Source: Cymodocea nodosa
Lineage: Eukaryota > Streptophyta > Magnoliopsida > Alismatales > Cymodoceaceae
DNA: 64,000 nucleotides
Reading direction: 5' to 3'
NCBI GenBank assembly: GCA_036874045.1
Contig: CM072338.1
Span: forward strand, 14,716,501-14,780,500
In this document: piece after piece, positions 42,427-64,000 of the stretch
Layout of the letters: each line of letters begins with the position of its first letter
Position numbering within the stretch: position 1 is the stretch's first letter
Position numbers and translations under genes: made by a program
The notes under the pieces: model-generated
Told to the model about the DNA's origin: nothing
Seen by the model: the letters and a program-made list of their open reading frames with translations, nothing else
Databases searched by the model: none

Positions 42427-44182
42427 TGTTTAGGTTGGAAAACTTATTTGATTTGTTTTTATGCTTATATTAATAAATTTTTAGAAGTAAACAAATAACT
42501 TTTCACACAAATTAGATATTAAATATAATTTATATTTTTAACTGCAAGTACATAGTGTATATTGTATTTGTGTGCAAGTATAGGTCGATTCCACAAAGAT
42601 TGAGTAAGAATTGTGTACTACTTCGATTTTTATAATGGAGTTTATATGTGTTTAGTTAAGCACTTCATTGACTTACAATTAACTCAACGGACTTAGTTCG
42701 TAGAGTTACAGCTAATTCAATGGTTTAACCTTGTAAACTTAAGTTAACTCTACGAGCCTATCTTTTCAGTTAAATACTATTATTCACAAAGGAATTCGAC
42801 TATCCATTGAGCGATTCCACAAAATGTAAATAACATCAATTAAGCTTTTTAATACTAGTTAATCTGAGATTTGTCATTAAGCAACACTGGCATTTAGATA
42901 TTTCAAACAGTAACCATTAAGATTTTTAGTATTCTGTATGAATCAATTTCAGTAAACAATAAAACTATTTTCTATTTTTTGAATCAAACAAACATAAAAT
43001 ATTCACAATACTGACAGTAATATCATTAATTACGATACAAAACAAACAATACAACACTTTAATACTAAATGTAAATACAGATAATAAGCTGTTTTTGGTA
43101 TTTTTGTTTTGATATGTTCCTGAAGATGAGCGAAAGTTAAAATGTAAAAATCTCTATCGACAGTAAAAACTTCCATCACTACATGCGACACGATTACACC
43201 ACTGAAAACTTAATCACTTACAATATTGCCTTCTCTCCCTATAGAATCGTGAACCAAGACTTGTAAGTTGATCTCTTTAGCATATTGGCATCAACCCGAA
43301 ACTAAGGCTAGAAGCTTTACGATCTCTTGAGATATGAGTCGGTGCTTGATGAAAATGATTTTTCTTCTTACGACGTGATCACTTCTTACAGTGATTGTCA
43401 ATCATCATGTTTGGCTCAGAATCGACCCGACATCTAGAAAGTATCCTTATAGGCCTCTGATGGTTGGTGATTTTGGAGGTGTTATGGAGATTCAGGGAAC
43501 TTCTGACGCTTCCTACAGTTATCGTGGTTCTCCACCCATACTTCTTCATCTTTCTCCTCTTCTTTTATATTTCTTTCAGTAGTAACTGTTTCTGCTTAAA
43601 TAATCGGTTAGATTTCCTTTATTCATATCAACGATGGTGATTTCTTCTTCATTCCACAAGTTAATTCCTGTGTGATACATGCAATCGTGGTTTTCCTTTG
43701 AATTTCTTGTTTTTGCAATTGCTATAGTGGTATGTTAGAAAATAGCTGGTTCGTGGAGTTAGTGTAACTCAATGGACTTATTTCATTGACTTAACTATAA
43801 AACACGTGCAATAAAGAAATAACTTATAAGCTTATAACACTAACACAACATGTTACCTTAGTGTATATTCAAGTAACTCAATGCGTATAGTTATGCTAAT
43901 TTAATGAGTTAAACATGTGCAGCTCACGTGACATAATAAAGCATTTAATTTCAACATGTTAATAAATCTAACTTAACAAGTTCAGATGTTTCAGATAGTT
44001 ATAACTATAAATATTCAAAACTTATATGCATTTCAGATAGTTAGCACCTAACCTTCTAAAAGATAACTTAAGTCATGTTTCCAAATTGCGACACGTGTCT
44101 TCAATAAGTTTTATGATAAAAAGATATTACAGATACTCGCAAACCTAACTATCCGATGCTCAGATGCATTTTGGATAGTTAG

Positions 44183-46175
44183 TGTTTAGAATGAAAAGTG
44201 CATAATATTAACAGTTAAATGATGGTTAATTACATAATATTTAGTTTATCATATGAGAATTAAGTCATTATGTTATAATTGTACTATTATATGCTTTAAT
44301 GAAAGAATCTGCATCATTTCAGGAAATTAGCATTAAATATATTTTTGAACTATCGATAAGTTACAGGCTTTGAAATTCTTAAGTATTCAAATTTTTTATT
44401 ATTTTGGAGAGTTATATTGCATGTACTAGATAGTTATGTTTTAAACAATAAAAGAATATTTTATTATTCTCTGGAGTACACGTGTTGAGACCTTAATGCA
44501 TGACTTAAGTGGATTTTCGATAAGTTATTTGTTAACTATCCGAAATGTGTCTGAGTATCAGATAGTTAGGTTTGTAAGTATCCGAGATATCTAAACTCGT
44601 TAAGTTAGAATTATGCACGTGTTGAATTTAAATGCTTTATTATGTCACGTGAGCTGCACATGTTTAACTTGTTAAGTTAGCATAATTATATGCGTTGAGT
44701 TACTTGAATATACACTAAGGTAATGCATTGTGTTAGTGTTATAAGCTTATAAGTTATTTCTTTATTACACGTGTGTTTTAGTTAAATCAATGAAATAAGT
44801 CCATTAAGTTACACTAACTCCATGGATCATTTATTTTCTAATATGCCACTATAACAGTTGTAGAAACAGAAAATTCGAAGGAAAGCCACGATTACACATA
44901 TCACATAGGAATTCACTCATGGAATGAAGAAGAAATCACTATTGTTGATATGAATGAAGGAAATCCAATCGATCATTTAAGTAGAAGTAGTTACTACTGA
45001 AAGAAATATAAAAGAAGAGGAGAAAGACGAAGAAAAAGTGTGGGAGAGAGGTGGAGAACCGTGTTAACTGTAGGAAGCGTCAGAAGTTCCCTGAAGCTCC
45101 ACACCACCACCAAAATCACCAATCATCGGAGGTCTGTGAGGATACTTTCCAAATGTCAGGTCAATTTCGAGCCAAACATGATGATTGACAACTATTGTGA
45201 GGAGTGATTAGATCGCAAGAAGAGAAACCATTTTCACCAAGCACCGACTCATATCTTAGAAGATCGTAAAGCTTCTAGCCTTGGTTTCGGGTTGATGCTA
45301 TTATGCTGAAGAAGAGATTAACTTACAATTCTTGGTTCGCGATTTTATAGAGAAAGGAGGCAAGATTGTAAGTGATGAAGTTTTCAATAGTGTAATTGTG
45401 TCGCATGTAGTGACGAAAGTTTTTATTGTCGATAGAGATTTTTACATTTCACCTTCGCTTATTTTCAAGAACATATCAAAAAAAAATACTAAAAATAACT
45501 AATTATCTGTGTTTACATTTAGTATTATAGTGTTGTATTATTTGTTTTGTATCGTGATTAATGTTATCATTGTCAGTATTGTGAATGTTTTATGTTTATT
45601 TGATTCAAAAAATAGAAAATAGTTTTATTGTTTATTGAAATTGATTCGTTCCAGATACTTAAAGATTTTAATGATTACTGTTTGAAATATCTGAATATTA
45701 GTGTTGCTTAATGACAAATCTTATATTAACTAACATTAAAGAGCTTAATTGATGTTATTTACATTCTATGGAACCGCCCAATGGTTGGCCAAATTCCTCT
45801 GTAAATAACAGTATTTAACTGGAAAGATAGGCTCGTAAAGTTAACTTAAGTCCACGAGATTAGTCCGTTGAGTTAACCATAACTCCAAGAACTAAGTTTG
45901 TTGAGTTAACTGTAACTCAATGAAGTGCTTAACAGAACAAATACAAACTCCAATATAAAAATAAAAATAGTACATAATTCTTACTCAATCTCTGTGGGAT
46001 CGACTTGTACTTGCACATAAATACAATATACATTGTGCACTTGCAGTTAAAATACAAATTAGACTTAATATCTAATTTGTGTGAAAAATTGTTTGTTTAC
46101 TTCTAAAAGAATTTATTAATATAAGCATAAAAACAAATCAAACAAGTTTCTGATTTAACTTTTCACAACAATATA
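44183..46175 (+). mobile_element. solo LTR of the Athila-like family
   Basis: Starts TGTTTAGAATG like the full element's LTR and is collinear with it. It is flanked by GTTAG at 44178-44182 and 46176-46180, a 5-bp target duplication. Across the gap the host LTR reads continuously (CTAAC then TATCCAAAATGCATC on the minus strand). Its TATA box TATAAAAG is at 45007-45014. The last bases are AATATA rather than the expected CA. No internal sequence is attached, so it is a solo LTR from LTR-LTR recombination. Confidence 0.82.
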
Positions 46176-46515
46176 GTTAGCATCTAACTTACCAAAAATC
46201 CACTTAAGTCATGTATTAATGTTTCAACACATGTACTCCAAGGAATAATAAAATATTCTTTTAATATTTAAAATATAACTGTCCAACACATAAAATGTAA
46301 CTCTTCGAAATAACAAACAATTTGAATACTTAGGAATTAAAAAGCCTATAACTCACCGAGAGTGCAAAAATATACTTAATTAATGCTAATTCCTTGAAAT
46401 TATGTAGATTCTTTCATTAAGGCATATAATAGTGCAATTATAGCATAATGACTTAATTTTCATATGATAAACTAAATATTATGCAATTAACCATTATTTA
46501 ACCCTTAATATTATG

Positions 46516-48736
46516 TGTTTAGAATGAAAAAGTGCATATTATTAACGGTTAAATGATGGTTAATTGCATAATATTTAGCTTATCATATGAGAATTAAGCC
46601 ATTATGTTATAATTGCATTATTATATGCTTTAATTAGAATTACTACTTAATTTTGGAGAATTAATGTCAATTTAGTACATTTATGAACTATCGGTAAGTT
46701 ACAGGCTGTGAAATTCTTAAGTATCCGAATTTTCTGATATTTCGGACAGTTATGTTTAACATACCGAACATATTTCAGACAATTATATTTAACAAACCGA
46801 ACATGTATTAAATAGTTATGTTTAAATTGCCGAACAGTTATATTTTGAAAGAATAGTTTATTATTTCCGAAAGTACACGTGTCAAAACCATAATGCATGA
46901 CTTAAGTGAACTTTCAGTGAGTTATCTATAACTATTCGAAATTGCAGCTAGGCATCAAATAGTTATATGTGTAACTCTCTGAAATCTATTTTTATTTATA
47001 AAATAGTTGTGGACACGTGTCATGTTCTAGTAAAGTGACTTAAGTGGATTTTCGGTGAGTTATCTGTAACTATCCGAAATGCATCTGAGCATTGGATAAT
47101 TAGACCTGTAACTCTCCAAAATGTGTATTTCATTATTAAACTGCTGCTGACACGTGTCGAGATCTTGTAGATTTACTTAAGTTATATATCGGTGAGTTAT
47201 CTGTAACTATCCGAAATGCATCTGAGCATTGGATAGTTAAGTTTATAAGTATTCGAAATGCACCTAAGCATCAGATAGTTAAATTTATGCACGTGTTTTA
47301 TAGTTAAATCAACGAAGAAAGTCCGTTGAGTTATCTGTAACTCCACGGACTATTTATTTTCTAATATGCCACTGTAGTGGTTGTAGAAACAGGATAGTTG
47401 GAAGAAAAACCACAATTGCACGTATCACGCAGGGAGAAGAAAGCATCACCATTGATATGAATGAAGGAAATTCAACCGACCATTTAAGCAGAAATAGTTA
47501 CTACTAAAGAAATATAAAAGAAAAGAAGAAAAAGAAGAAAAGGGTGTGATCGAAGGACGACCAGTGTGTACAGAGGAGGAACACCGAGCTTTCTACAAAC
47601 AGTATCAGCAATTCTCCAAAGTACCACACCAACCATCGTTACCACGACCATAATCACCAACCATCGGAGGTCTGTGAGAATACTTTCTTGATGTCGGGTC
47701 GATTCCGAGCCAAACACAATGCATGACAACCACTATGAGGAGTGATCACGTCGCAGGAAGGGAAGCCATTTTCACCAAGCGTCGACTCATATTTCAGGAG
47801 ATCGTAAAGCTTCTAGCATTGGCTTCGGGTTGATGCCTGTATGCTGAAGAGGAGATCATCTTGCAAATCTGGACTTGCGATTCTATAGGGAGAGGAGATA
47901 TGATTGTAAGTGGTTTAATTTTTAGTGTTGTAATCGCGTTGCAAGTAGTGACGGAAGTATTTACTATCAATTGAGATTACTTTACATTTCACCTTTCACC
48001 CATTTCCATGTTCATATTAAAACAAAAATACCAAAAACAATTTATCTATGTTTGTATGTTGTATTGTTTGTGTTGTATTGTGATTAATGCTATCTTTATC
48101 AATGTTGTGATTATTTTATGTTAATTTTAATTTTACAGTTTACTGAAATTGGTTCATTCAAAAGACTTAAAGATTTAATGGTTACAGTTTGAATTATTAG
48201 AATGTTAGTATTGATTAATGATAAATCCAATGTTTATTAACATTAAAGAGCTTAATTGATATTATTTACAATCTATGGAACTGCCCAATGGTTGGCTGAA
48301 TTCCTTTGTAAATAGTAGTATTAAAAAGCAAAGACAGACTCGTGGAGTTAACTTAAGTCCACGAGGTTAGTCCATTGAGTTAGCCATAACTCAACCAACT
48401 TTGTCCGTTGAGTTAACTGTAATTCAACGAAGGACTTATTAAAGATATAAATTTGATTGTTAACAAATGGACAGTTCTAAACTCTTAAGCAATTCCCTAT
48501 GGGATCGACCTGTACTTGCACACTGATATAATAGACACTGTGCACTTGCAGTTAAAGTACAAATTGGAATTAATATCTAAATTGTATTAAAGGTTGTTTG
48601 TTTACTTCTTAAAGAAAAGAATAGGCATAAAGATAAATTAACTAAGTAAAAACAGAAGTAACAAATCCAAGTTTTTCTAGTACATTATTGGAGATCTAAT
48701 CAGATATTCTGGTGTCGTGTTGGGAAAACCCAAACA
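46516..48736 (+). repeat. 5' LTR of the plus-strand Athila element
   Basis: Begins TGTTTAGAATG and ends CCCAAACA. The U3 part holds a tandem array of ~138-bp units starting with ACACGTGTC (46875, 47013, 47150 and a partial at about 47289) and a TATA box TATAAAAG at 47513-47520, so transcription probably starts near 47545. Downstream there are hairpins such as TCCGTTGAGTTAACTG with its inverse (about 48400). Confidence 0.88.
46875..47300 (+). promoter_or_regulatory. tandem G-box repeats in the LTR promoter
   Basis: Three ACACGTGTC sites at 46875-46883, 47013-47021 and 47150-47158, plus CACGTGTT near 47290, spaced about 138 bases. Each begins a unit that also contains GAGTTATCTGTAACTATCCG or a close variant. 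CACGTG is the G-box bound by plant bZIP and bHLH factors, and ACGTGTC matches the ABA-response core. Function here is inferred. Confidence 0.6.
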
Positions 48737-48742
48737 AGTTTT

Positions 48743-48761
48743 ATAGCATCGTTGCCGGGGA
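48743..48761 (+). other. primer binding site (tRNA-Asp type)
   Basis: TAGCATCGTTGCCGGGGA resembles the TGGCGCCGTTGCCGGGGA site used by Athila-type elements. It lies seven bases after the LTR end. Confidence 0.8.
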
Positions 48762-48847: not shown

Positions 48848-49774
48848 ATGACATATGCTTATGCTCAAAGATTTCTGAAACTTGTAATTAGCATATGTGA
48901 ATTCTGCAATTCTGAAGCACATGACATTTCTGATTGTTTGAAACTAAGACGTTTATAGATGGTTAGATCCCATGAACACCAAATGAATTATCCTCAGTAT
49001 AATAGAGTCGAGTATGAGAATCCTATAGTTTACCCAACTGATGGTCAATATAGAATGTGTAATATGTTGAGAGACACTGAAATTTGGGATAAGTATGACA
49101 GACTGGAGTGTAGTATAAAGCAAAACTTGGACAAACTAGAATACTTTATGTGTTAGTAACAAGAAGTCAACCAATTAAACTATAAGGAAGCATATTTAGA
49201 ACCTAAAAAGGATATAATTTACGAAACTGAAAAAACCATAATGAAAATTGATCAAAAATTGAATGCAATGAGATTAGATGATCTAGAAAGAAAATTAAAA
49301 ACATTAAACGAATATACAATGAAAATACAAGTTATGCAACAGGACAATCAAAATTATAATATTATAAACCTGCATAATTTGCAAAATATACAACAAATAG
49401 AAAATACTAATGCAATAGAATTTAAAGAATGCACTCTAAAACTAAAAATAATTGAAGATCATAATCACGAAAATGATATACAAAAACATCATAAGAGTAA
49501 CAAAAATCTGGAAGATGTATGTGTAACATTAAGATCTGGAACTGATATACCACTAAGAACTCAAAATGAAAATAATATAAAGGTGGATAAGAGTAAAAAT
49601 CAAAATGATAATGAAAATGTAATAGCTGAAAATCTAAAAATTACTGAAGAACAATCTGAATCTGCTAATGAAGCTAAAAATGATCAAACAAATCAAATGA
49701 AAGAAAAAGAATCTTTTAAAACACAATCTTTAGCACCCTATCCTGAAAGATTACAACAAACAATACCTGAAAAA
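48848..49774 (+). pseudogene. Athila gag C-terminal part (zinc knuckle to protease linker)
   Basis: One frame runs through this stretch with stops at 48956-48958, 49154-49156 and 49157-49159. It starts with a CX2CX4HX4C zinc knuckle (CEFCNSEAHDISDC, about 48896-48937), continues with a charged coiled-coil region (49241-49500), then VTLRSGTDIPL near 49530 and APYPERLQQTIPEK before the stop. TLRSG and YPERLQ are landmarks between gag and protease in Athila polyproteins. The gag core that should come before them is absent here and found instead at 52699-53877. Confidence 0.7.
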
Positions 49775-50737
49775 TAAGAAAAAATCAGAGAAATTTTTGA
49801 AAAAGTATAAGTTAACATTCCTTTGTTAGATCTAGTGTAGAAAATGCCACCTTGTGCTAAATATCTGAAGGATTGGTGTACTAAGAAAAGAGAGCGAAAA
49901 GTTCTTAGAAAGGTCTTTTTAGCTGAGTAAAGTAGTTCCCTATTTCTGCCACAAATTCCTAAAAAGTTATCTGATCCTGGAATCCCTGTTATATCATGCA
50001 CCATAGAAAATACCATTCTAAAAAGAACCTTAATAGACTTAGGTGCAGGTATAAATGCTATGCCAAGTGATATATTTGCATCCTTAGGATTAGAAGGCTT
50101 AACTCCTACTAGTACGGTTACTCAATTAGCTGATAGAAGTATAAGATACCCTAGAAGAAAAATAGAGGATGTCTTAATTAAAATCAAAAACTTTATATAT
50201 CCTATTGATATTGTAATTTTGGAATCCCAATAAATTAAGCATAAAAATAGTGATACATCTTTAATTTTGGGAACACCATTTTTAGCAACATCAGAGGCTG
50301 TTATAAATTGTAAGACTGGAGTAATGAAGTTAGCATATGGTAATGAGGATACTCAATTAAATATTTTCAAACCAGAAAAGTTTGAGGAGTTAGAAATGTC
50401 CTTACATACCATAGACTTTTTAGAGGATGAAAGAGATATGTTAGATGATGTGATTCAAGAAGAATTAAATAAGCAAATCAATTCTGAAACTTTAGAGGAA
50501 AGTGAAAGCATAAATATAGAAGAAGATCTGGAAGAAATTAATTTAGAAAATGATGATGCTCAATTAGGAGCTCTAGCTTCTAATGGGCAACATTTAGAAT
50601 TAAAACCTTTACCTCCTGAATTAACCTATATATTTCTGGAAGATAAACAAACCTGTCCAATCATTATTGCTTCAGATTTAAAAGAGGATCAAATAGCTAA
50701 ATTAAAAGATGTAGTAAAAGTTATAAAGAAGCAATAG
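49775..50737 (+). pseudogene. Athila retropepsin-like protease
   Basis: Starts with the linker KIREIFEKV.VNIPLLDLV and AKYLKDWCTKKRE. The aspartic protease region follows: DPGIPVISCTIENT, then LIDLGAGINAMPSDIF at about 50033, where the catalytic Asp is kept but the usual DLGAS reads DLGAG. After that come TVTQLADRSIRYPRRKIEDV and LILGTPFLATSEAVINC. Stops at 49775, 49808, 49838, 49928 and 50231 interrupt the frame. An acidic tail (50380-50600) leads to RT, which lies in another frame after a shift near 50720. Confidence 0.75.
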
Positions 50738-52130
50738 GATGGACTATGACTGATATAAAAGGGTTAAGTTCAACTTTATGCTGTCACCACATATATTTAG
50801 AAGAGAATGCTAAACCTGTTAGAATTCCTGAGAGGAGATTAAATCCAAACCTTAAAGAAGTAGTTAGGAAGGAAATAGTGAAATGGTTAGATAATGACAT
50901 AATTTATCCGATTTCTGATAGCTCGTAGGTTAGTCCAATCCATGTAGTTCCCAAGAAATCAGGATTAACAGTTATTAGGAATGAAAGTCAAGACTTGATA
51001 CCTATTAGAATTCAATCAGGCTGGAGAGTATGTATAGACTATAGAAAGCTGAATGCTGTGACTAGGAAAGATCATTTTCCGTTACCTTTTATAGATCAAA
51101 TGCTGGAAAGGTTAGTAGGGCTAGAATATTTTTGTTTCCTAGATGAGTATTCTGGTTATAATCAAATTCCAGTAGCATTAGAGGATCAAGAGAAAACAAC
51201 TTTCACCTGTCCTAATGGAACTTATGCTTTTAAGAGAATGCCATTCAGATTATGCAATGCACCAGCTACCTTTCAAAGGTGTATGCAGAGCATATTTACT
51301 GGAATGACTAAAGATTTTTTAGAAATATTTATGGATGATTTTACTGTATATGGCAATTCATATGAAGTCTGTTTAAAAAATTTAGACTTAATATTAAAAC
51401 GTTGTGTGAAAAAAAATTTGATTTTAAATTGGGAAAAATGTTACTTCATGGTTAAACAAGGAATAGTCTTAGGGCATGTTGTTTCTAAGAAAGGGTTGGA
51501 AGTAGATAAAGCTAAAATAGAAGTAATTTCTAATCTACCAGAAGCTAAATCAATAAAAGATATTAGATCATTTCTAGGACATGATGGTTTTTATCGAAGA
51601 TTTATTAAAGACTTTAGCAAGATAGCTAGACCTTTAACTAATCTATTAAAAGATGTTCCATTTAACTTTGATAAAAATTGCAAGGAAGCATTTTTCAGAC
51701 TTAAGACTAGCTTAATTTCAACTCCTATAATTCAAGCACCTGATTGGAACTATCCATTTGAATTAATGTGCGATGCTTCTGATTTTGCTGTAGGAGAAGT
51801 GTTGGGATAGAAGATAGAAAAATCTCCTAGAGTGATTCATTATGCAAGCAAAACCTTAAATGATGCTCAAGTTAATTACACAACTACTGAAAAAGAATTA
51901 TTAGCTGTTGTGTTTGCTTTAGAAAAGTTTAGATCATATCTGATTGGAGCTAAAGTAATAGTATACACGGATCATTCAGCTCTAAAACATTTAATAAAGA
52001 AAAAAGAGACCAAGCCTAGATTGATCCGATGGATATTATTATTACAAGAATTTGATCTAGAAATTAAAGATAAAAAAGGTTGTGATAATGTAGTAGTAGA
52101 TCATTTATCAAGATTACAAATAGAAAAATC
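50738..52130 (+). pseudogene. Athila reverse transcriptase and RNase H
   Basis: RT covers about 50746-51650: WTMTDIKGLSS, then RIPERRLNPNLKEVVRKEI, WRVCIDYRKLNAVTRKDHFP, LDEYSGYNQIP, FRLCNAPATFQRCM and the catalytic FMDDFTVYG (about 51330). The thumb has IRSFLGHDGFYRRFIKDFSK. RNase H (51650-52130) has [37 protein letters not shown] and [10 protein letters not shown] with [10 protein letters not shown], so its acidic residues are kept. Only two in-frame stops occur, TAG at 50926-50928 and 51808-51810. In Athila this enzyme copies the element's RNA into DNA. Confidence 0.85.
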
Positions 52131-52698
52131 AAATATTGAAATTAAGGATAATTTTCCTGATAAACAATTAATGACCATCAACACAATACCTTGGTATGCA
52201 GACATAGTTAATTACTTAGTTACTGGTTTAACACCTAAGGATTGGAATAGACAAGATAAGAAATTATTTTTCTCAAGAGTAAAATATTACTATTGGGAAG
52301 ACCCATACTTATTTAAGAAATGTCCTGATCTGATTTTAAGGAGGTGTGTTCCAGAAAATGAATATCCGAGCATATTATCTTTCTGTCATGACCAAGCTTG
52401 TGGAGGGCATTTTGGTTCAGGGAAAACTGTTGCAAAAATTCTGCAATGTGGGTTTTATTGGCCAACAGTATTCAAAGATACTCATAAATATTGCTTAAGT
52501 TGTCAACAAATAGGAAGAATATCAAAGAGGAATATGATGCCTCTTAATCCTATTGTTGAGGTTGAAATCTTTGATGTGTGGGGAATAGATTTTATGGGTC
52601 CATTTCCTATGTCTAATCAATTTAATTACATATTGTTGGGGGTGGATTATGTATCTAAATGGATAGAAGTTATTCCTACAAAAATTAATGAAGTTTGA
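52131..52698 (+). pseudogene. Athila integrase, truncated after the first catalytic Asp
   Basis: The HHCC zinc domain is present ([13 protein letters not shown], then [10 protein letters not shown] near 52485-52515). The first core strand [11 protein letters not shown] carries the first catalytic Asp, and [17 protein letters not shown] follows. The frame stops at TGA 52696-52698. The homologous minus-strand element continues here with the rest of the core, so the second Asp, the Glu and the C-terminal domain are missing from this copy. The sequence changes abruptly to gag at about 52690. Confidence 0.82.
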
Positions 52699-53877
52699 AG
52701 TTTTTCTATCCTAGAAAAACCATTAGGAGAGATTCTGTATCCTGAATTAGTTGATGAACCTTCATGTATTCGATTGCCAAACTTTGAGGGAGATAGGTTT
52801 GAACTGAAATCTAATTATATTAGTCAATAGCTATATTTTCATAGATTAGAAAGAGAGGATACCTATTATTTCCTTAGAGAATTTAATGAAGTTTGTCAAA
52901 TGATGAAAATGCCGAACATGAGTATAGATGCTATTAAACTTAGATATATCCCTTTTTCTTTAAAAGACAGCTAAGAGATGGTTATATACTCTATCGCCTG
53001 ATTCAATTTCTACATAGACTGAATTTTGCTCTATTTTTTTGGAAAAATATTATCCAACCCATCAAACGATTAAAAAGAAATATTAATGTGTAGCCAAAAA
53101 CAGGGTGAATCATTCTGGAAATATTTTGAAAGATTTAAAGATTTACTAACTCAATGTCCACATCATGCAATGAGTAAAGCACAATTAATAAGTATAATTT
53201 ATGAAGGCATTGATGTTTCAACGAAATCTTTATTAGAATCTACTTGTCAAAATGGATTTTTAAAATTATGTAGTGAAGAAGCATGGGCATATTTAGAAAA
53301 CTTTGCAAAAAGAACTGCTTAGTGGGAAAACTCGGCTGAAGCTATTGTAGATAAAAAAATATTGCTAAGAGGAATGCATGAAATAGATTCAAGTACTATG
53401 CTTGAGGTGAAATTAACTGAATTAACAAAGAAAATAGAAGAGTTCTCATTAAATCAAAAGCTAGCAGAAAAGAATGCAAACATAAATAATTTAGATATTA
53501 TTTATGCTAGAAACCAAAGAGATAATTTGGGAAATTCTTATAATCCTAATTGGAGAAATCACCTGAATTTATCTTGGAGAAACAACAATTTTCAGGGAGG
53601 AGAAAATGTAAATGAGAAGAATATAAGTTATGAAGCATTACTGGAACAAGGATCTAGAATAGAGAAATTAGAGAAGATAATCCAACAATTAAACAATCGT
53701 TTAGATTTTGTATTTGGAAATACTGCAATTCAAAATCAGAATAGAAATATACCACTTAGACAGAAGTAACCAATGGAAGTTAGATCTACTAGAGGATTGC
53801 CAATACAAGCAATATATAACCTTGTCAATAGAACTGTTAATGAAATTGATACCTCTTCTAGGAGGGTAGCTGAATGA
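52699..53877 (+). pseudogene. Athila gag core, located downstream of pol
   Basis: The sequence reads like an Athila gag: an N-terminal leader (ELVDEPSCIRLPNFEGDRFE), then REFNEVCQMMKMPNMSIDAI, LRYIPFSLKDS and, after frameshifts at about 52970 and 53080, QGESFWKYFERFKDLLTQCP. A SYNPNWRNHLNLSWRNNN block (about 53539-53592) and a coiled coil EQGSRIEKLEKIIQQLNNRL follow. These normally sit between the 5' LTR and protease. The gag frame follows pol's frame directly after one TGA. Stops at 52828 and 53329 also occur. It ends at TGA 53875-53877, about 190 bases before the F-box ATG. Confidence 0.78.
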
Positions 53878-54067
53878 AGCAGCATATCTGAAGCAACTAT
53901 CTGTATATATATATGTTTTTATTTATAGTTAATAGTATCGTAGAGTCAGTCCTTAACTCAACGAACTTATTTCGTTGAGTTATGCCTTAACTCCACGAGG
54001 GTGTGTAGTAGTTATGTTAATTTTTTGTCTCTACTAAATTTTTGTTTGTGTTATACAGAATTAACAA

Positions 54068-55206
54068 ATGGAATTAATGCAATTACCATTGGATGCGCTA
54101 AGGGAAGTAGTGAGTAACTTGTCAGCTAAAGATCTGTGCAGGTTGTGTTGTGTATCAAAGGAAATTAAAGACTGTATTGAAGAAAAATATTTTCAAGGAC
54201 TACAAGCTGCAAAAATGACTAAGATTAGAGATGAATTCATATGGAGGTCATTTAATTGTAGTTCAATTAATCATGAATATCTTGCTATGGAAGAAACTAC
54301 TAGAATTCCACCCAATACATTAGAAGGAATAAATCATATTATGGGGATAGATGAAGGATTAATCATATATAGGACGAGACCAAGGTATGCAAGTTTATTA
54401 TTACCTGATATTTTGATAAGAAATCCTATAACAAGAGAAGAATGGAATATAGGAAGACCTAATAGATTTGAAGTACCAACTGTAAATTGTGGATCGGCTT
54501 TAATATTTTCTGATAAAAATTCTGCAATTCCTGAAAAATTATATTATTGGAGACCTATAGGAAATTAGGGTGAAGATTTATGCTTAAGTGTGTATAATTT
54601 TCTGAATAGATCTTGGAATGAAAATATTATGATATATCTAGGACAGAAATCATTAATTAACCAAACACATGTCATACTTGATGGATATATATATCTTGTC
54701 ACAGATATATCAATTGCATTTGGATCTGATTTATACATAGTGAGCATAGATAGTTATGATGAATATATAGAAATTTTACCTATACCGAGTGATATAGCTA
54801 AACCACCATTTGTAGAATTTAATAAAATTCAAATAAGAGTGTGGTATAATGAAGAAGATGATCCTACTTTATGTCTGATAAGATGGTGGGATGAATTGAT
54901 GAAATTTCAAATATGGATTATGGAAGACATTAATGAATGGAAGTGGGAAGAAGAGTTTATTGAAATAGATGTAGAAATAGAAACTACTAATTACCCTGGA
55001 ACCAAAAAGGATCCCTTTCTGCATTTCATATCATTAATGGTAATACACTTGTATTTGGAATTTATAATATATTACACGTTTACAAATTAAGAAGGAACAA
55101 GAATTGTATGAAAACAAAATTAATAGCAAGAAGAATTATGCCTAAAAAGTTTGATTGGACTGATACATTTATTCCATTAGTTCCTACTTTTCAATCATGT
55201 TCTTAA
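54068..55206 (+). pseudogene. F-box protein gene inside the Athila element
   Basis: F-box proteins are the substrate-choosing subunits of SCF ubiquitin ligases. ATG 54068 opens an F-box at residues 6-44 (LPLDALREVVSNLSAKDLCR, then CVSKEIKD). A long C-terminal region looks like an F-box-associated domain (LLPDILIRNPITREEWN, VILDGYIYLVTDIS, FQIWIMEDINEWKWEEEF). The frame is broken by TAG at 54566-54568. The likely natural tail lies one frame over after about 55020, giving NGNTLVFGIYN through FIPLVPTFQSCS and TAA at 55204-55206. The intact form would be about 380 residues, usual for the family. It has no intron, lies between gag and the 3' non-coding region, and is in transcription sense. Only two lesions in about 1.1 kb is fewer than the surrounding gag. 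A low-level functional truncated product of 166 residues cannot be excluded. Confidence 0.82.
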
Positions 55207-56938
55207 GCTGTGATTTTGTGTGTTTAATGTTGTGTGTATTCAATGTTTATTTTTAGAAAAAAATATAGTTTTCATTTTATTTTATAAAAGAAAAAAAAAA
55301 CAAAATATCAATCCAATTTGTTAGTATCTGTTCTAGGAAACCAACTGGCTTGCTTGTGAGCCACCAAAGGCATAGGAGCCTGGGTTCCACACATGACACT
55401 AATTTATTAATATCTGTTAGATGTTATTTTGTTTTATAATCTGCGTTTATCTGTGAATGAAAATTTTTTCAGAATCAAAAATCTGAATATACAGAAGGAG
55501 ATACAAACAAAACAAGGTATGTAACCAATAACTTATCCTAAATTTTAAATCAAAGAAATTGTATTCATGCCTGCTACAATTACTGTATTTATTATCAAAT
55601 CTTTTACATTGAGGACAATGCAAAATGTAGGTATGGTATGTAGCCATGTAAGTTTGTTAATTAAAGGAATTAAAATGGCACTGCAAAGTTTTGTAGAAAT
55701 TGAAAATTTTTATGAACTCGCTGTAACTATCTAATAATTGAGACTGTAAAATTTTTATAAACTGTAACTGCTTGAATGTTATATTTAGAAGGCTATAGAT
55801 GATGCTATAGAATTTACTATTTATGCTAATCTAGATATAGTATCTTATGTTTTTTTTCTGAATTTCATGAGTTTAACAGTTTCACGATTTTAAAATGAAA
55901 TCAGAATGCTTAATGAAAAAAATTTATCTGAAGTCTTAAAGGAGTTGAGATGTGAATTCTAGATTAAATGAAACATATATGATTAAAGATACATTTAATT
56001 TGACTAATTGAACTTGTAGAATGATTTATGTGTAGATCTTATTAAACTACAAAAAAAGTATGAGCTCATTGTTATGGATTCATATTTACAGTAAATGATA
56101 GAAGCAGGACTATATCAGATTGCTGATTACTGCATCTATATTAATGAAATACGTACATATACAGTATGTGATTAATGCTTTGTTTTCTGTGTATTTTGAT
56201 TGAAAAAAAATAAAATAAAATTTGAGAGTTTATTGACTTGTTTGATCACAAGCCTTTTGTACTTGAGCAGATAGGTATGTAAGGATTGTTGACCTAAAAA
56301 AGGACTCTTGAAATCTGACAACCTAAGATTTTGATCAGATCTAGGATTGTTGACTGAAAGCTCGTTACATGGGTACATTAGAAAGCTCTTGTATGATTCA
56401 AGCTTGTCAAATTAGCTTTTAAAGTACAAAAAAAAGAAAAAGAAAAAAATATACATATACTGTTATGAAAAGATACAAGTGTTTTGTGAAATACAAATAT
56501 CTTATGAATCGAGTATATTTTCTGTTATGTAGAATTGCTGTAATATGAATCTAGAATTGACTTTTGAAGTTGTTTAATGGAGATACAATTTTTTATTCTA
56601 CTTGTCTTAATCATATTGAATTGGATTGTACTTTGATTCGTATGTTGTTGAAATTTCTTCTAGAAATCTTATTGGAAAATTCAAGATGATAGATGATGAA
56701 AAGAAGAACAAATGATAATATAATTAACACCTATGTGATGATGATATACTTTGTATGTAATTTACATATATTCTAAGTATATTTGCAAGTTGATTACTGA
56801 AACATACAGAATATATATTTTTATGCTGAATAGAAGAAAAAAAAGAGAGAGGAAGAATTAATTCTGGCACTTTTAGAAATACCAATTAATTAGATCTTAG
56901 TTTGCTAAGGGACTAGCAAAATTTAGGTATGGGGGAAG
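55207..56938 (+). other. 3' non-coding region and polypurine tract of the plus-strand Athila element
   Basis: No protein is encoded. A block with GAGCCACCAAAGGCATAGGA (about 55359-55378) and the stretch near 56220-56350 (inverse of TACATACCTATCTGCTCAAG) are conserved in inverted form in the minus-strand sister (59640-59720 and 58600-58740). The polypurine tract AGGTATGGGGGAAG at 56925-56938 primes plus-strand DNA synthesis. Confidence 0.7.
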
Positions 56939-57972
56939 TATTTAGAATGAAAAGGTGCATATTATTAACGGTTAAATGATGGTTAATTGCATAATATTTA
57001 GCTTATCATATGAGAATTAAGCCATTATTTTAGGAGAACATAAAGCTTCTAGCCTTGGCTTCGGATTAATGCCTATATGTTGAAGAGGAGATCATCTTGC
57101 AATTCTGGACTTGCGATTCTATAGGGAGAGGAGATAGGATTGTAAGTGGTTTAATTTTTAGTGGTGTAATCGCGTTGCAAGTAGTGACAGAAGTATTTAA
57201 TATCGATTGAGATTACTTTACATTTCACCTTTCGCCCATTTCCATGTTCATAATAAAACAAAAATACCAAAAACAATTTATCTATGTTTGTATGTTGTAT
57301 TTGAGTGTTGTATCGTGATTAATGTTATCTTTATCAGTGTTGTGATTGTTTTATGTTAGTTTTAGTTTTACAGTTTACTGAAATTGGTTCGTTCAAAAGA
57401 CTAAAAGATTTTAATGGTTACTGTTTGAATTATCTGAATGTTAGTATTGATTAATGATAAATCCAATGTTTACTAACATTAAAGAGCTTAATTGATGTTA
57501 TTTACAATCTATGGAACTGCCTAATGGTTGGTCGAATTCCTCTATAAATAGTAGTATTAAAAAGCAAAGATAGGCTTGTGGAGTTAACTTAAGTCCACGA
57601 GGTTAGTCCGTTGAGTTAGCCATAACTTAACGAACTTTGTCCGTTGAGTTAACTATAATACAACGAAGGGCTTATTGAAGATATAAATTTGATTGTTAAC
57701 AAACAGACAGTTCTAAACACTTAAGCAATTCTCTGTGGGATCGACCTGTACTTGCACACTGATACAATAGACACTGTGCACTTGCAGTTAAAGTACAAAT
57801 TGGAATTAATATGTAAATTGTATTAAAGGTTGTTTGTTTACTTCTTAAAGAAAAAAATAGACATAAAGATAAATTAACTAAGTAAAAACAGAAGTAACAA
57901 ATCCAAGTTTTTCTAGTACGTTATTGGAGATGTAATCAGATATTCTGGTGTCGTGTTGGGAAAACCCAAACA
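56939..57972 (+). repeat. 3' LTR of the plus-strand Athila element, internally deleted
   Basis: Starts TATTTAGAATG (TG changed to TA) and ends CCCAAACA. Compared with the 5' LTR it lacks about 1,186 bases corresponding to 46606-47791, joining ...AGCCATTAT to TTTAGGAG. The lost part includes the G-box array and the TATA box. Confidence 0.85.
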
Positions 57973-57996
57973 TTATGCATATTTTCTTTCTAAACA

Positions 57997-59905
57997 TTTC
58001 CCTCATACTTAACTTTTGCTAGTCCCTTAGCAAATTACTAAGATCTAACTAGTTGGTCTTTCTAAAGTGCTAGAACTAATTCTTCATTTTGTATCTTCAA
58101 AATACATAGATTAGATTAATATAAAGATATTCTGTATTAATTCAGTAATCTAATTTAACATTATTTTCTCCTCTCCAACTTGCAAATATATTTAAAACAT
58201 ATGTAATTTACATACAAAATATATTAGCATCACATAGGTGGTAGTTATATTATCAATTTTTTCTTTTCAAACATTTATTATCCTGAATTTTCCAATATGA
58301 TTTCCAGAATAAATTTCAACTACATACAAATCAAAACATAATTCAACTCACTATGATTAAAACAAGAAGAATAATGAATTGTATCTCAAATAAATAACTT
58401 CAAAAGTCTAATCTAGATTCATACTTCAGTAATCATAGATAATAGAGAATATACTCGATTCAAAAGATATTTGTATTTTTACAAAATACTTTTATCTTTT
58501 TAGAACAGTATATGCATATTTTTACTTTAAAAGTTAATTTGAAAAGCTTGAATCATACAAGAACTTGCTAATGTACCTATGTATTGAGCTTTCAATCAAC
58601 AATCCTAGATCTAATAAGCATCTTAGGTTGCTAGATTTAAAGAGTCATTTTTCAAGTCAACAATCCTTACATACCTATCTGCTCAAGTACAAAAGGCTCA
58701 TGATCAAACAAATCAATAAACTTTCAAAGTTTTTCTTTTTTTTTTCCTCTTTTTCCTTTTCAACATAGTATATATACGTATTTCATTAATACAGATGTAA
58801 TAAAATACAAATCTCATATAATCTACTTCTATAATTTACTGAAAATATGAATCCATATCAATAAGCTCATACCTTTCCTGTAGTCTAATAAGATTTACAC
58901 ATAAATCATTCTACAAGTTTAATCAATTAAATTAAATGTATACTTGATCATATGCATTTCATTTAATCCAAAAATCAACATTTCAGCTCGTTTAGAATTT
59001 CAAATAATTTCTTGAGTTATAGTTAAGTATTTTGATTTTTTTTTAAATCGTGAAACTGTTAAATTCATAAAATTTAGTAAAAACATAAGATACTATATCT
59101 AGATTTGTATTAATAGTAAGATTGTGTAGCATCTTATATAAGATTTTAAATATAACATTCAAGTAGTTACAATGTTTTTTTATAGTTTCAATTATCAAAT
59201 AGTTATAGAAAATTTCGGTTAGTTACAGTAAATTCATAATAAAAAAAATTTTCAATTTCCACAGAAATTTGCAGCACAATCCTAATTTCTCTAATTAACT
59301 AGATTACTTGGATTTTAATCTAATTACCTCTCCCCATACCTACATTTTGCATTGTCCTCAATGTAAAATTTTTTACAGTAAATATACTAAATGTTAGTAG
59401 GTATGAATATTATTTCGTTGACTTAGCACCTAATTCAACGAGCTTAATTCGTTGAGTTAATGAATAACTCCACAAATTGAGCTTGAATGTAAATTCAAGA
59501 TAAGTAATCAATTACATACCTTGTTCTTTTGTATCTCCTTCAATATCTTCCAACTTTTGATTCTAAAAAACTTTTCATTCACAAATAAAATCAGAATATA
59601 TAACAAAATAACAACTTAACAACAAAATATAAATTATTAAATCAGTGTCTTGTGTGGAGCCTAAGCTCCTATGCCTTTGGTGGCTCACAAGCAAGCTAGT
59701 TGGTTTTTTAGAATAGATACCAATAAACTACATTGATATTTTGTTTGTTTTTTTCTTTTCTAAATAAAATAGAAAATAAAAGTTGGCTTTTTGTTTTTTT
59801 TGTTTTCTTCTTCTAAAGATAAATAAAACAGAAACTTAAAAATTTTCTTTTTTTCTTAAAAATAAATGCAGCATACACACAACATTAAAAGTATAAAATC
59901 ACAAT
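57997..59905 (-). other. 3' non-coding region and polypurine tract of the minus-strand Athila element
   Basis: Homologous in inverse orientation to 55207-56938 and without coding potential. The polypurine tract is at 57997-58010. Near 59415-59470 it carries TTCGTTGA/TCAACGA hairpin words of the family. Confidence 0.7.
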
Positions 59906-60896
59906 TTAAGAACATGATTGAAAAGTAGTGATAAATGGAATAAACATGCCAGTCCAAGTAAACTTTTTAGGCATAATTCTTTTTTGCTCTTACTCTTCTT
60001 CTTATTCTTCAAATAATAAATCTACAAAAATGGGCTCTTTATGCCCTACTATATACATTATAGGCTCAAATTTAATTTCTTCTTCTACCGTCTCAAATAC
60101 ATTTTCTTTTTCTTTTCTTCTTCTAAATAGTTATGCCTGATCTTCTTCTTCTTCTGATAATAAATCAACAAAAATGGGCTCTCTAGGCCCTCAAGCCATA
60201 GGTGCTGGCTCTTCCTATTTCACATTCTCTATAGTTGCTGGTCTCGAAGGACCAACCTTAATTTCTCTTATAATAGGTATGGTAGTGGCTTCTTGGTGCT
60301 ATTCAACTTTAACTTTGTATTGGACCTTCAACTTTTCTGTAGCCCTCCTTTTGTGAAGTGCATCAAACATTAGATGTGCTTTAGCTACTACCAAATCTTC
60401 TGGTTCTCCTTGATTTTTCCCAACTCAAACCAGTTCTTCAAACTCTCTCAACTCTTCTTCAGTAGAAGGCCCCATAACTATCACCCTTTCTAGTGGTTTA
60501 GGTGATGGAATTGAAGGTCCTGCTTGTTGTGCTGCTGTAGCTGTCATTTTAACTTGCTCTCTTAGTTGTTGTTGTGAAAATTCCGGCTACTGCTCTTGTT
60601 TTTCCTACTCTCTCTGTTCTTTAAATTGTTGATAAGCTGCTTCTACAGCTATCTTCCTTATAAACCATAGCCATGATTTCCTACTTATAAGTTTTAGGGC
60701 AACTTCATTGTACAACCTGATTTTTCCTTCTCTATTGACAATTGTTTCTATAGCTACTCATATTCTTGTTTCCATTATTTGAGATATTCTAACATTTAAA
60801 TTTACAAGTTTTCTAATAAAGAAGAATATATCATCCTCTACATTTTCAAGTTACTTTTCTCTCATGGTGTTTCTGATCTTCTGCCATGAATGTCAT
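59906..60896 (-). pseudogene. acidic accessory ORF of the minus-strand Athila element
   Basis: Read downward from an ATG at 60896, with at least one early frameshift and several stops, this gives a protein of about 330 residues that I do not recognise. It has RKLVNLNVRISQIME, NEVALKLISRKSWLWFIRK, a Gln/Ala-rich and Pro-rich middle (SIPSPKPLERVIVMGPSTEE) and VVAKAHLMFDALHKRRATEK. Then come two acidic copies of a PIFVDLL motif (REPIFVDLLSEEEEDQ and KEPIFVDLLFEE). The last ~25 residues (MPKKFTWTGMFIPF, TTFQSCS) are clearly homologous to the tail of the F-box protein at 54068-55206 in the sister element. It occupies the same place between pol and the 3' LTR. No env or known domain was seen. Confidence 0.6.
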
Positions 60897-61059
60897 TCCT
60901 TTGATTATTTGAGGAATTTCGTAGTGTCAAACTGATCCTAGAAGTTTTGCTCTATCTTTGTCTTCGTTGCGTTACGGAACGGAACAGAATCACTTTGACT
61001 TTTACTATTCTAAGTTCTAAATGATTTCTATGGATAATGCCTCCAAATCTTAAGTTTTA

Positions 61060-61330
61060 ATATAAATAAACCCTAAGTTATTGGCGGGTAATCAGGTCAT
61101 TCCTTACGCAAACTATCACTATTCACATATACTACTCCGTGGAGTTACGATTAACTCCACGGACTAAGTTTGTGGACTTATGTTAAGTACTTTGTTAAGT
61201 TACAATTAACTCAATGGAGTAAATTCTTTAACTTATCCTAGACACAATAGAGTAAGTTCGTTGAGTTAAGCTTAACTCAATGGACCTCTTGTAAAGTTAT
61301 AACTAATAAAAATAAATAACTATAATAAAT
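61060..61330 (-). promoter_or_regulatory. hairpin cluster and TATA-like site upstream of the acidic ORF
   Basis: Contains palindromes CCGTGGAGTTACGATTAACT with its completion (about 61137-61162) and TTCGTTGAGTTAAGCTTAAC (about 61258). On the minus strand TTTATATTAAAA lies about 165 bases before the ORF's ATG. A separate promoter for the accessory ORF is inferred only. Confidence 0.35.
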
Positions 61331-61399
61331 TTTTACTTGGTCAACATCGAAGAATCTCTAGTCTGACTAACTCTTAATTTTTTTATTTGCATAACTTCA

Positions 61400-61670
61400 G
61401 TTAAACTGTTGCTTTTCCTCGGTCGAACCGAAATTACAGAATTTTTTCTTTTTCTGCCGATTGAATCGATACCATGCTTCGGTAAAATCGACATTTCTAC
61501 TTAATAATATATATATATATATATATATATTTATATTTTTTTATATTTCGATTAAATCGATTGATCCTTTCGATGTGACTGTAACAATATTTTTTGTTTT
61601 AATATATGTTTTAGTAAAACCGATAATTTCTTTCAATTGAACCGTTACTATATTTAAAATAAGTTTTTTT
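61400..61670. repeat. decayed CGGTT..AACCG hairpin repeats with AT run
   Basis: Words such as TCGGTCGAACCGAAATTACA, CGATTGAATCGATACCATGC, CGATTAAATCGATTGATC and AGTAAAACCGATAATTTC surround an AT dinucleotide run (about 61509-61531). They resemble the palindrome array inside the Harbinger element (13850-14515). Confidence 0.5.
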
Positions 61671-61719
61671 TATATATAAACAATAACAAACATATATATA
61701 TATCTACTTAATAAAGCTC

Positions 61720-62650
61720 GAGTAGTCCTCTACTCTTACTTCTTCTATAATTCCAAATGAACTTTTTGGAAATTTCAGAATAGGTCTAAGTCTTTGTCCA
61801 TTTACTTTCAATATATTCTGATTTTTAGGATTTTCAATTTCAATAGCTCTATAGGAATAAATATTTCGAATTATGTAAGGTCTTGCCTATTTAAATCTTA
61901 ATTTTTCTAGATGGTTATGAAGTACTTCTTGTCCTATTTCAAAAGTTTTTGAAATAATTTTCTTGTCACGCCAACACTTCATTTTCTCTTTTTCTTTTAT
62001 AGTTTTCGAATAAGTTTCATTCCTAAATTCTTCTAACTCAATTAATTACATTTTTCTATTTTCAGTACCTTAATTTAAATTAGTGTTTAGAGTTTTTAAT
62101 TCCCAATAAGCTTTATGTTCAATTTCACCTAGTAAATGACAACTTTTTCCATATACTGTCCTAAAAGGTGACATACCTAAGCTTGTCTTATAAGCAGTTC
62201 TATAAGCCCAAAGTGCATCTATTAATCTATTAACCCAATCTTTTCTAGTAGGATTTACTACTTTTCTAAGATTAACTTAATTTGTTTGTTTACACTTTCT
62301 ACTTATCCACTTATTTGCGGATGATATGATGTTGCAATTTTGTGATTTACTCCATATTTCTTCATTAAGGCTTCAAAACTTCTATTACAGAAATGAGCTC
62401 CTCTATTAGTAATAATAACTTTAGGTATTCCAAATCTAGCAATTATATTAGTCCTGATAAAATGTATTATCACTTTGTTGTCATTAGTTTTTGTAGGAAT
62501 AACTTTTATCTATTTAGATATATAATCCAACCCCAACAATATATAATTAAATTGATTAGACGTAGGAAATAGACCTATAAAATTTATTCCCCACACATCA
62601 AAGATTTCAACCTCAACAATAGGATTCAGAGACATCATATTCCTCTTTGA
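61720..62650 (-). pseudogene. Athila integrase core and C-terminal region
   Basis: On the minus strand: [20 protein letters not shown], then VWGINFIGLFP where the first catalytic Asp is Asn, NIIARFGIPKVIITNRGAHF where the second Asp is also Asn, and [12 protein letters not shown] keeping the Glu. The region continues with [17 protein letters not shown] and a C-terminal part ending near GQRLRPILKFP. Both Asp to Asn changes fit GAT to AAT. Stops and a frameshift are present. The zinc domain is cut off at about 62650 by the next insertion. Confidence 0.82.
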
Positions 62651-62654
62651 TATT

Positions 62655-64000
62655 TGTTGAGTATTTTTGTTTTGATGATGTGTGTTGAATGAAAATAATC
62701 ATATTTGCTCAATTACTATTGCTTGTGAAAAGAAATTAAAATCATCAATTAATACAGAAAAAGCTTACTGATATAAATACTTGTCTGTATTGGATCTGAA
62801 GTTAATAACTAGTCATTTCGTTGCATTAATTTCTCATTTAGCTAAACATTAAGTTAACGTGTGGTTTTATTGAAAAGCATGATATGTTTTAAAGTTATAT
62901 CTTCTGTATCATGAATAGTGCACGCTTAGACAACTCGTTAAGTTAGAGTTTTGTTTATATAGAGGTCACGTGAGAAGTCGTTAAGTTAGAGGCTTAAAGG
63001 TTAAAATAGGTCACGTGATAACTCGTTAAGTTAGTGAGTAAAAGAAGAGACAAACTCGTTAAGTTAGTGTTATACACGTGGTGAAATTATAAGTTACGAA
63101 TGCTGTATTGTATCACGTGAGGTGCACATGTTTAACTCGTTAAGTTAACATAACTAAACATGTTGAGTTGCTATATTGAACACTAAGGCAACGCGTTAGG
63201 TTAGCGTTATAAACTTAAGTTGTTATTTTTGCACGTGGTAAAATTATTATTATAAAAACATTTGTTTATTACTGAATTAGTGAGTTAAAGTTTTTCGGTG
63301 ACTTACATCTGTAACTATCCGAAACTTAAACTGTTTTCGGTGAGTTATCGTTTAACCTTCTGAAAGAAAGGTTAAGCTGGTTCGTTGAGTTATCATAACA
63401 CAATGGAGATGGTTTGTTGAGATAGCATAACACCACAGACTTAGTTCGTTGAGTTAGCTACAGTACACGTCACGTGAAATGGCACATGATGAACTCGTTA
63501 GGTTAGAAATGTTAAGTTATATATATATACTTGTGTTACTCGTTTAGTTAACATTAAAGTAACGACTTCTTATTACACTGATGAAAAATTTTTGGACGAG
63601 AAAGTTTATTTTGCAGGAAATTTTTCAGAGATCAAAGACTGATGATTAAAGGAAATTCGAAATATAAACATGAGTTAGAACGTGTGTGTTTCGATGAAGG
63701 AAAAAGAAAAGACGTGGAGAAGTGGAAAACTAGTAGTGATTAAACGTGGAGGATATGCATGAAATGAAGATACCGTATAAAAGACATAGAGTTCTCGTTG
63801 ATCAAACCATCCTTGCACACAAAAAGAAAAATCTTTTCAAGGATCAAACCATCCCTGCACACCAAAAGAAAAATCTTTTTCAGGGATCAAAAACACCTTC
63901 TCGGGGAAAATCTCTCAAGTGGAAGAAAATTCAGTGAAGCATAAAAAGGTAAGATTTTCGTCACTGAAGATTTGAAGTATCATAAGAAAGCAAATTTGGT
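62655..64000 (+). mobile_element. LTR-like sequence of a related family, runs off the window
   Basis: It begins at about TGTTGAGTATTTTTGTTTTG (62655), directly after the integrase remnant. Its middle (63050-63250) resembles the mid-part of the Athila LTRs (GCACATGTTTAACTCGTTAA, ACACTAAGGCAACGCGTTAG). It repeats CGTTAAGTTAG about five times (62936-63150) with interleaved CACGTG sites (about 62967, 63010, 63074, 63115, 63234 and 63470). A TATA-like GTATAAAAG lies near 63775. No gene is seen and the far end is not in the window. Confidence 0.6.
63800..63890 (+). repeat. two tandem ~42-bp units
   Basis: GGATCAAACCATCCCTGCAC followed by an A-rich AAAAGAAAAATCTTTT part occurs twice (from about 63797 and 63839), and a third unit begins at about 63883. 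It lies about 25 bases after the TATA-like site, so it would be in the transcribed leader. Confidence 0.65.

Follow-up and report, generated by a model that had tools for sequence, protein, structure and literature searches.

An F-box reading frame occupies positions 54068-55206 of the plus strand in the 64,000-nucleotide stretch of Cymodocea nodosa DNA analysed here (the window), and the question raised by this locus is whether the frame is a regular gene of the LTR retrotransposon in which it lies, a passenger of that element, or a separate insertion within it. A first-pass annotation, made from the sequence alone, had placed the frame inside an element bounded by LTRs and a TTATG duplication. 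This placement held: the insertion is a Ty3/gypsy-type element on the plus strand with direct LTRs (46516-48736 and 56939-57972), and the frame within it matches the Pfam F-box domain PF00646 (E 3.2e-10 over 54068-54565). The features of this element, and those of a second element on the opposite strand, are as follows.

46511-46515, unstranded: left TTATG target-site duplication (direct reading)
46516-48736, plus: 5' LTR, TGTTTAG...AAACA (self-comparison, ends read)
48743-48761, plus: primer-binding-site-like stretch, ..GCATCGTTGCCGGGGA (direct reading)
48896-48937, plus: presumed zinc knuckle C-x2-C-x4-H-x4-C in the NC-like 5' part (by eye)
49241-49777, plus: 5' gag remnant, linker to the protease, ..LRSG.. 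(sequence reading)
50267-52691, plus: PR-RT-RNaseH-IN region, broken, ending inside IN (Pfam, comparison of copies)
52691-52712, unstranded: internal-deletion junction (comparison with L030/L015 and L031/L019)
52712-53877, plus: gag2, the capsid gag ORF located after pol, broken in the window copy (homologous ORF in L015)
53903-54058, plus: intron, GT..TTATACAG, in the interval between gag2 and F-box (equivalent stretch exactly absent in L026)
54068-55206, plus: F-box ORF (Pfam, translation)
55207-56938, plus: 3' untranslated region and purine tract, the tract at about 56926-56938 (direct reading)
56939-57972, plus: 3' LTR (self-comparison, ends read)
57973-57977, unstranded: right TTATG target-site duplication (direct reading)
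59906-60000, minus: tail of the F-box ORF in the opposite-strand element, the rest of the ORF not being seen there
62654-61705, minus: IN fragment of the opposite-strand element, followed by an extra-ORF remnant, the F-box tail, the 3' region and the LTR

The 5' LTR of the window copy has TG..CA ends, and the initial bases of the 3' LTR are decayed. The 5' LTR is followed by a stretch resembling TGGCGCC..TTGCCGGGGA, a candidate primer site of the Athila tRNA-Asp type. RT, RNase H and the integrase zinc-binding domain lie upstream of the F-box on the same strand (PF00078, E 1.1e-28; PF17917, 1.7e-26; PF17921, 8.2e-11). Pfam returned no protease match in the window pol region, where we assume a protease from its position, and no gag domain in either the window's 5' gag piece or the corresponding stretch of another copy (L031, 1465-2217). 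Relative to the copies L030/L015 and L031/L019, the interval from IN to gag2 is shorter by about 4.7 kb. Between the F-box and the 3' LTR lies a 3' region of 1.7 kb, with the purine tract immediately preceding the LTR. This arrangement is not due to chance, as it recurs in the other copies that were read. The 5' LTR also holds about 1.2 kb that is absent from the 3' LTR and is partly repetitive (repeat unit of about 137 bases); because the two LTRs belong to one insertion, this stretch was lost or gained by one of them after insertion.

The identity of the ORF as an F-box gene is certain. Its N-terminal F-box domain exceeds the Pfam cut-off in the window copy and matched PF00646 in three intact copies as well (E 2.5e-10, 2e-10 and 1.1e-7). 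The window frame runs to 55206 and is interrupted twice, by a stop at 54566 and by a frameshift near 54990, in agreement with the two lesions that had been read from the sequence, and intact copies of the ORF are present elsewhere in the genome. The F-box half of the predicted domain structure was thus borne out by the HMM scan; the FBA-like C-terminal region was not, since FBA_1 stayed below threshold in the window copy (E 0.002, 18.5 bits against a cut-off of 21.1), neither FBA_1 nor FBA_3 rose above its cut-off, and two of the three intact copies scanned gave no FBA match. A search of the genome for FBA_1 likewise gave no match, but its controls were equally silent, making it uninformative. 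No relatives were found in protein databases, and solved structures gave no credible match. A host source gene was not found among the 150 genome matches scored as the best of 5214 candidates, all of which are near-identical to the query.

The surroundings of the element contain further mobile DNA. Positions 57978-64000 (minus) and 42440-46515 belong to another element of this family, on the opposite strand; the F-box element has inserted close to where the 3' LTR of that element starts, and the remainder of this LTR appears to continue below 46515. At 44181-46149 there is a plus-strand, solo-LTR-like copy, apparently inside this opposite LTR (inverted arms about 83-86%); one family has therefore probably inserted here three times, in nested fashion. 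Ty1/copia reverse-transcriptase fragments were seen at 4434-4886 and 30115-30480 (PF07727). A DDE transposase of the PF13359 type, presumably PIF/Harbinger, accompanies a Myb/SANT-like ORF (PF12776) 2 kb away (12991-13461 and 10672-11046). Two adjacent DUF7705 frames (PF24804, E 7e-105 and 4e-88) at 6435-7724 on the minus strand are likely exons of one host gene.

Whether the F-box travels with the element was evaluated in the whole genome assembly (374.6 Mb, 28 contigs). A pattern of 39 bases at the F-box start, allowing at most three mismatches, was found at 1217 places (604 + 613), and its reversed control at none; this number counts F-box starts, possibly including fragments, rather than whole elements. 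When the first 166 residues were used as a protein query, the best 150 of 5214 candidates were scored and all 150 showed 90-100% identity; by hand count, 114 of them were free of stops over the 166-residue query stretch and 36 of these also had an open frame of at least 373 residues. In a set of 20 other copies read with about 10 kb each (the long-flank set, selected partly for the length of their open frames), the F-box had its C-terminal tail in all 20, and the common gag ORF lay about 300 bases upstream in 19, the exception being L013. Both ends of the 3' region followed the F-box in 20/20 and the LTR start in 19/20; the exception, L022, has a 3' region that is cut at its end, and no LTR start was found there. 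A second set of 20 copies, hand-picked from pattern matches irrespective of frame, had the end of gag2 and the intron upstream of the F-box in every case (L052 and L053 with only the last gag part), and 19 of them retained the acceptor AG. No nested-insertion border between F-box and element was seen in the copies read. The F-box is a regular gene of a high-copy family, with about a thousand copies, and the earlier suggestion that it is mobile with its element is supported by these counts and by the constancy of its neighbours; the search that the first-pass annotation had recommended, for further copies between pol and the 3' LTR, returned very many.

The order of genes in the family was read from copies with longer flanks, a further 6 kb upstream being examined for 4 of the 20 long-flank copies. 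Adjacent coordinates joined L030 to L015 and L031 to L019, giving two copies that span from the 5' LTR into the 3' LTR. Both have the order 5' LTR, zinc-knuckle leader, capsid-less gag remnant, protease region, RT, RH and IN, followed by an extra ORF, the capsid gag (PF03732 in L015, E 8.6e-15), F-box, 3' region and LTR. The capsid gene is therefore downstream of pol in both copies able to show the order. Consistent with this, the 5' ends of L029, L030 and L031 have no space for a capsid gene ahead of the protease, that of L029 belonging to a different, opposite element. The extra ORF is broken in both spanning copies, and its counterpart in L013 gave a weak PF20167 match (E 0.004). Across 17 copies gag2 is almost gap-free over about 600 aligned bases (L019, 4351-4950), as against up to 20% gaps in upstream windows. 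The F-box does not stand in place of an env-like ORF, as had been proposed; in the longer copies it follows both the extra ORF and the post-pol capsid gag. Two other structures were seen. In L032/L013 pol and the F-box are present, gag2 is missing and the leader is truncated. In the pol-less L012 (7900-9898, reverse) an LTR, primer site and short leader piece are joined to the region preceding gag2; we rejected a spliced leader-gag RNA as its source, there being no GT on the leader side, and it is probably a non-autonomous derivative formed by deletion.

The RT-RNaseH-IN order of pol, the LTRs and the 5-bp target duplication are those of Ty3/gypsy elements. A capsid GAG upstream of PROT-RT-RH-INT was not found, the capsid being located only downstream of IN (L030/L015, L031/L019), and the family is therefore Ty3/gypsy by its pol and not by its gene order. 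The Athila ORF-1 domain PF03078 was absent among the Pfam matches of the ORF pieces, where the weak PF20167 match of L013 appeared instead. In the accessible sections of a large survey, PF03078 is present in 16% of Athila elements (PMC6317226); it is not a required feature.

The reading frame of the F-box is intronless, as had been stated; the gene is not, because an intron precedes the ATG. This intron has GT-AG borders with GT(ATGT) donors and is T-rich before the acceptor. Donor 1, GGAAAGCTTCAGACTG/GTATGT, lies ahead of gag2 and was recognisable in 17/20 long-flank copies, its GT being lost in one of these 17 (L011); donor 2, GCAACTATCT/GT, lies at the end of gag2, and AT replaces GT in several copies. 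The shared acceptor, ..TTTGTGTTATACAG/AATCGACAA, lies ahead of the F-box ATG and kept its AG in 18/18 unspliced long-flank copies. The junctions predicted for F-box RNAs are CTTCAGACTG/AATCGACAAATG and GCAACTATCT/AATCGACAAATG. L013 lacks exactly the stretch from donor 1 to the acceptor, and L026 exactly that from donor 2 to the acceptor; with at most three mismatches allowed, the type-1 spliced junction was found at 202 places genome-wide (96 + 106; control 0). As these DNA copies have exact spliced junctions, spliced RNAs were reverse-transcribed. A 388 nt gap in L013 was considered as a further intron and rejected, since it is bounded by a short repeat and lacks GT-AG ends.

On a tree of 41 F-box sequences, with 19 rows of the spliced form and 21 of the gag2 type, the spliced form required five changes (shuffled mean 13.4, 0/500 shuffles as low), of which at least two are forced by well-supported branches in this shallow tree, whose bootstrap is not fully settled. 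Seven of the 19 spliced rows form one group (96/73), and the spliced L013 and L033 lie inside a clade with 19 of the 21 gag2-type rows. We read this as more than one origin of the spliced form together with the apparent amplification of one intron-less form. Among 16 spliced-junction copies not chosen for frame, four were open to the native end and 12 were not. The intron-less copies (L013, L033-L050) have no capsid gene at the F-box junction and keep the F-box start, and such a lineage would have to borrow a capsid in trans for its movement. An acceptor-like sequence, TTTTCATTGCAG, also lies just 5' of the capsid-gag ATG in L015 (3725-3745) and in L019, which suggests that gag2 may likewise be expressed via splicing.

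Selection on the ORF was evaluated against its wrong frames. The dN/dS comparison among element-borne copies, which had been put forward as a check, gave a low value for the F-box domain and none of use for the ORF as a whole. In 14 intact copies whole-ORF dN/dS was 0.53, lower than in any of 100 neutral simulations, and in 17 copies it was 0.52; the wrong frames of the same region gave comparable values (0.45 and 0.67), so the whole-ORF value is not evidence of selection and was dropped. In the F-box domain dN/dS was 0.15, the lowest among 42 frame-windows. Additionally, in 37 copies (L036, L037, L039 and L050 being dropped for long indels, and L007 already excluded) the F-box domain had 22N:5S among singletons and 10N:16S among variants shared by at least three copies (p 0.002, or about 0.03 after correction for twelve tests, namely four regions in three frames), with wrong frames at p 0.78 and 0.23. 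The same test showed no selection outside this domain (51-166, p 0.63; 167-379, p 0.097), and for the whole ORF the in-frame p of 0.011 was matched by wrong frame 1 (p 0.017). Only one shared stop variant occurred in frame over the whole ORF, compared with 24 and 19 in the other frames, although many rows had been picked as open-frame copies, which lowers stop counts. Pairwise divergence was 0.050 for the F-box, 0.053 for gag2, 0.071 for the interval between them and 0.080 for the 3' UTR; the copies had been taken from a ranking by similarity of the F-box, so that the F-box figure tends to come out low. These results show amino-acid constraint on the F-box domain among shared variants.

The LTRs of the window copy are 93.8% identical over 948 aligned bases, which at plant substitution rates of 0.7-1.3e-8 per site and year corresponds to about 2.5-4.6 million years. 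Identity in the part compared was about 94.2% for L030/L015 and 94.7% for L031/L019; a value of 90.7% was obtained for L010 against the opposite neighbour in L029, two LTRs that may not form a pair. By LTR divergence the copies are millions of years old, and many are broken.

Our preferred reading, to which we assign a probability of about 0.6, is that the ORF encodes an SCF adaptor of the element, captured and kept as a regular gene, that directs a target. An Athila-type Ty3/gypsy element would have acquired a plant F-box gene in the interval separating its existing genes from the 3' LTR; over about a thousand insertions this gene would have been passed on as a regular component of the element, with the capsid gag encoded beside it downstream of pol. 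A single genomic RNA would serve NC and pol, and alternative splicing to acceptors ahead of gag2 or the F-box would yield separate mRNAs, of which the F-box mRNA has left spliced DNA copies and the capsid mRNA would presumably be made likewise. The F-box protein translated from the spliced RNA would most likely dock onto host SKP1-CUL1 via its conserved domain, its C-terminal part most likely directing a protein to ubiquitination and degradation with benefit to the element. By analogy with viral F-box proteins, of which P0 removes AGO1, our first guess at a target would be a host restriction or silencing factor. More tentatively, and at less than even odds, we propose that the family follows a genome plan of its own, in which NC-pol would be read from unspliced RNA and the capsid and the ubiquitin-ligase adaptor from spliced RNAs, the F-box would act in counter-defence like viral silencing suppressors, and an intron-less, capsid-free sub-lineage would borrow its capsid in trans while retaining its F-box in cis.

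The F-box could instead have been captured once and have hitch-hiked with a successful element without any service to it. Most of the ORF has no selection signal beyond the wrong-frame controls, and three quarters of the spliced-junction copies not chosen for frame are not open to their native end, as would be expected of such a passenger; however, the constraint on shared variants of the F-box domain, the near absence of shared in-frame stops and the conservation of the acceptor in both sets of copies argue against it, and we consider it rather unlikely. A protein that acts on the element itself, for example by timing the cycle through turnover of capsid or integrase, would be in keeping with the position of gag2 within the intron removed from type-1 F-box RNA, from which it follows that capsid and type-1 F-box message are made alternatively. 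Yet the gag2-less copies, namely the 19 spliced-type rows, keep the F-box (whole in four of the 16 not chosen for frame), and a self-directed role seems to us doubtful.

The clustering of the spliced-type copies on the tree would also arise if the history were reversed, that is, if the ancestor had pol, the extra ORF and F-box, the capsid gag was inserted later, and the "spliced" copies are the older form. Against this order of events stand the boundaries of the missing stretch (GT(ATGT), T-rich, AG), the joining of one acceptor to two different donors, the position of L013 and L033 within the gag2-type clade with its at least two forced changes, and the 5' ends of L029, L030 and L031, which leave no space for a capsid gene before the protease; we regard it as improbable. 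Many plant F-box genes lack introns, and an intron-free frame might for that reason be a processed pseudogene of a host gene, or a separate nested insertion, in an unrelated element. The first-pass annotation had itself named an F-box insertion with its own ends as the finding that would overturn its reading; no such ends were seen, and the constant position and neighbours of the F-box in the 20 long-flank and 20 upstream copies (exceptions L013 for gag2 and L022 for the LTR start) refute this explanation, to which we give practically no weight.

The reading of the F-box as a gene of the element sets this family apart from several known cases. Maize Bs1 is a low-copy chimera of several gene fragments, whereas the present family is of high copy number and has one complete ORF. 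The two are alike in that an LTR element carries pieces of host genes, as Bs1 is cited in the accessible part of a review (PMC7264820). According to that same part, host genes taken up by transduction are found as a single copy or a few, and spliced expression is known for the env-like ORF of barley Bagy2; the additional or env-like ORFs that it covers resemble the F-box gene in being sense ORFs between pol and the 3' LTR in most copies, and the available text has no occurrence of "F-box" (PMC7264820). An LTR element containing an F-box has been described before. In flax a Ty1/copia element has an F-box protein between its LTRs, described as gene capture (transduplication), and shares with the present case an F-box gene in an LTR retrotransposon; it is presented as one "particular example" from Ty1/copia, compared with about a thousand F-box copies in a Ty3/gypsy family here, and the passages on it are silent on copy number, conservation, splicing and the place of gag (PMC5142383, in the excerpted text). 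In Thlaspi arvense, an "LTR-gene" in the F-box family is, in the portion of the report at hand, a single host gene duplicated through LTR elements, unlike a gene of an element family (PMC8764390).

The closest well-studied case is that of Ty3/gypsy elements from orchids that encode an AlkB (2-ODD) domain, for which a role against host surveillance was suggested in a study that screened 121 angiosperm genomes (PMC9289625, in the sections available). As here, an additional ORF in a plant Ty3/gypsy family codes for a regulatory enzyme of host type; AlkB is an RNA demethylase, in contrast to a ubiquitin-ligase adaptor, and in the main text as available F-box has no occurrence and is not among the extra domains named in section 12 (PMC9289625). 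Plant viruses code for F-box or F-box-like proteins that meet SKP1/SCF, namely polerovirus P0, nanovirus Clink and crinivirus p22 (PMC3588083, PMC6784205, in their accessible parts); these are likened to the element's protein by role and not by sequence comparison, SKP1 binding being only predicted for the latter. In Ogre elements an intron between the gag-pro and RT ORFs is spliced, such that splicing decides which element protein is made, as it would here, while the Ogre gag stays upstream of pol (PMC6317226, in the sections available). Among the matches listed by an exact-word literature search, which covered few subscription papers, none described a spliced and conserved F-box gene in an element family of high copy number, and none a capsid gene after pol.

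For plant retroelements, the family bears on the order of genes and on the relation to the host. A capsid gene after pol that would be reached by splicing breaks the GAG-PROT-RT-RH-INT rule, and since a large survey discarded elements whose domains stood in an unexpected order, treating them as probable mispredictions (PMC6317226, section 6, as accessible), elements of this kind may have escaped notice. Natural DNA records of spliced RNAs are a further asset of the family. Its F-box gene has a constrained domain predicted to dock onto SKP1 and is fixed across about a thousand copies of the family; it offers a concrete protein with which to ask whether plant retroelements actively counter host control by means of proteins stolen from the host.
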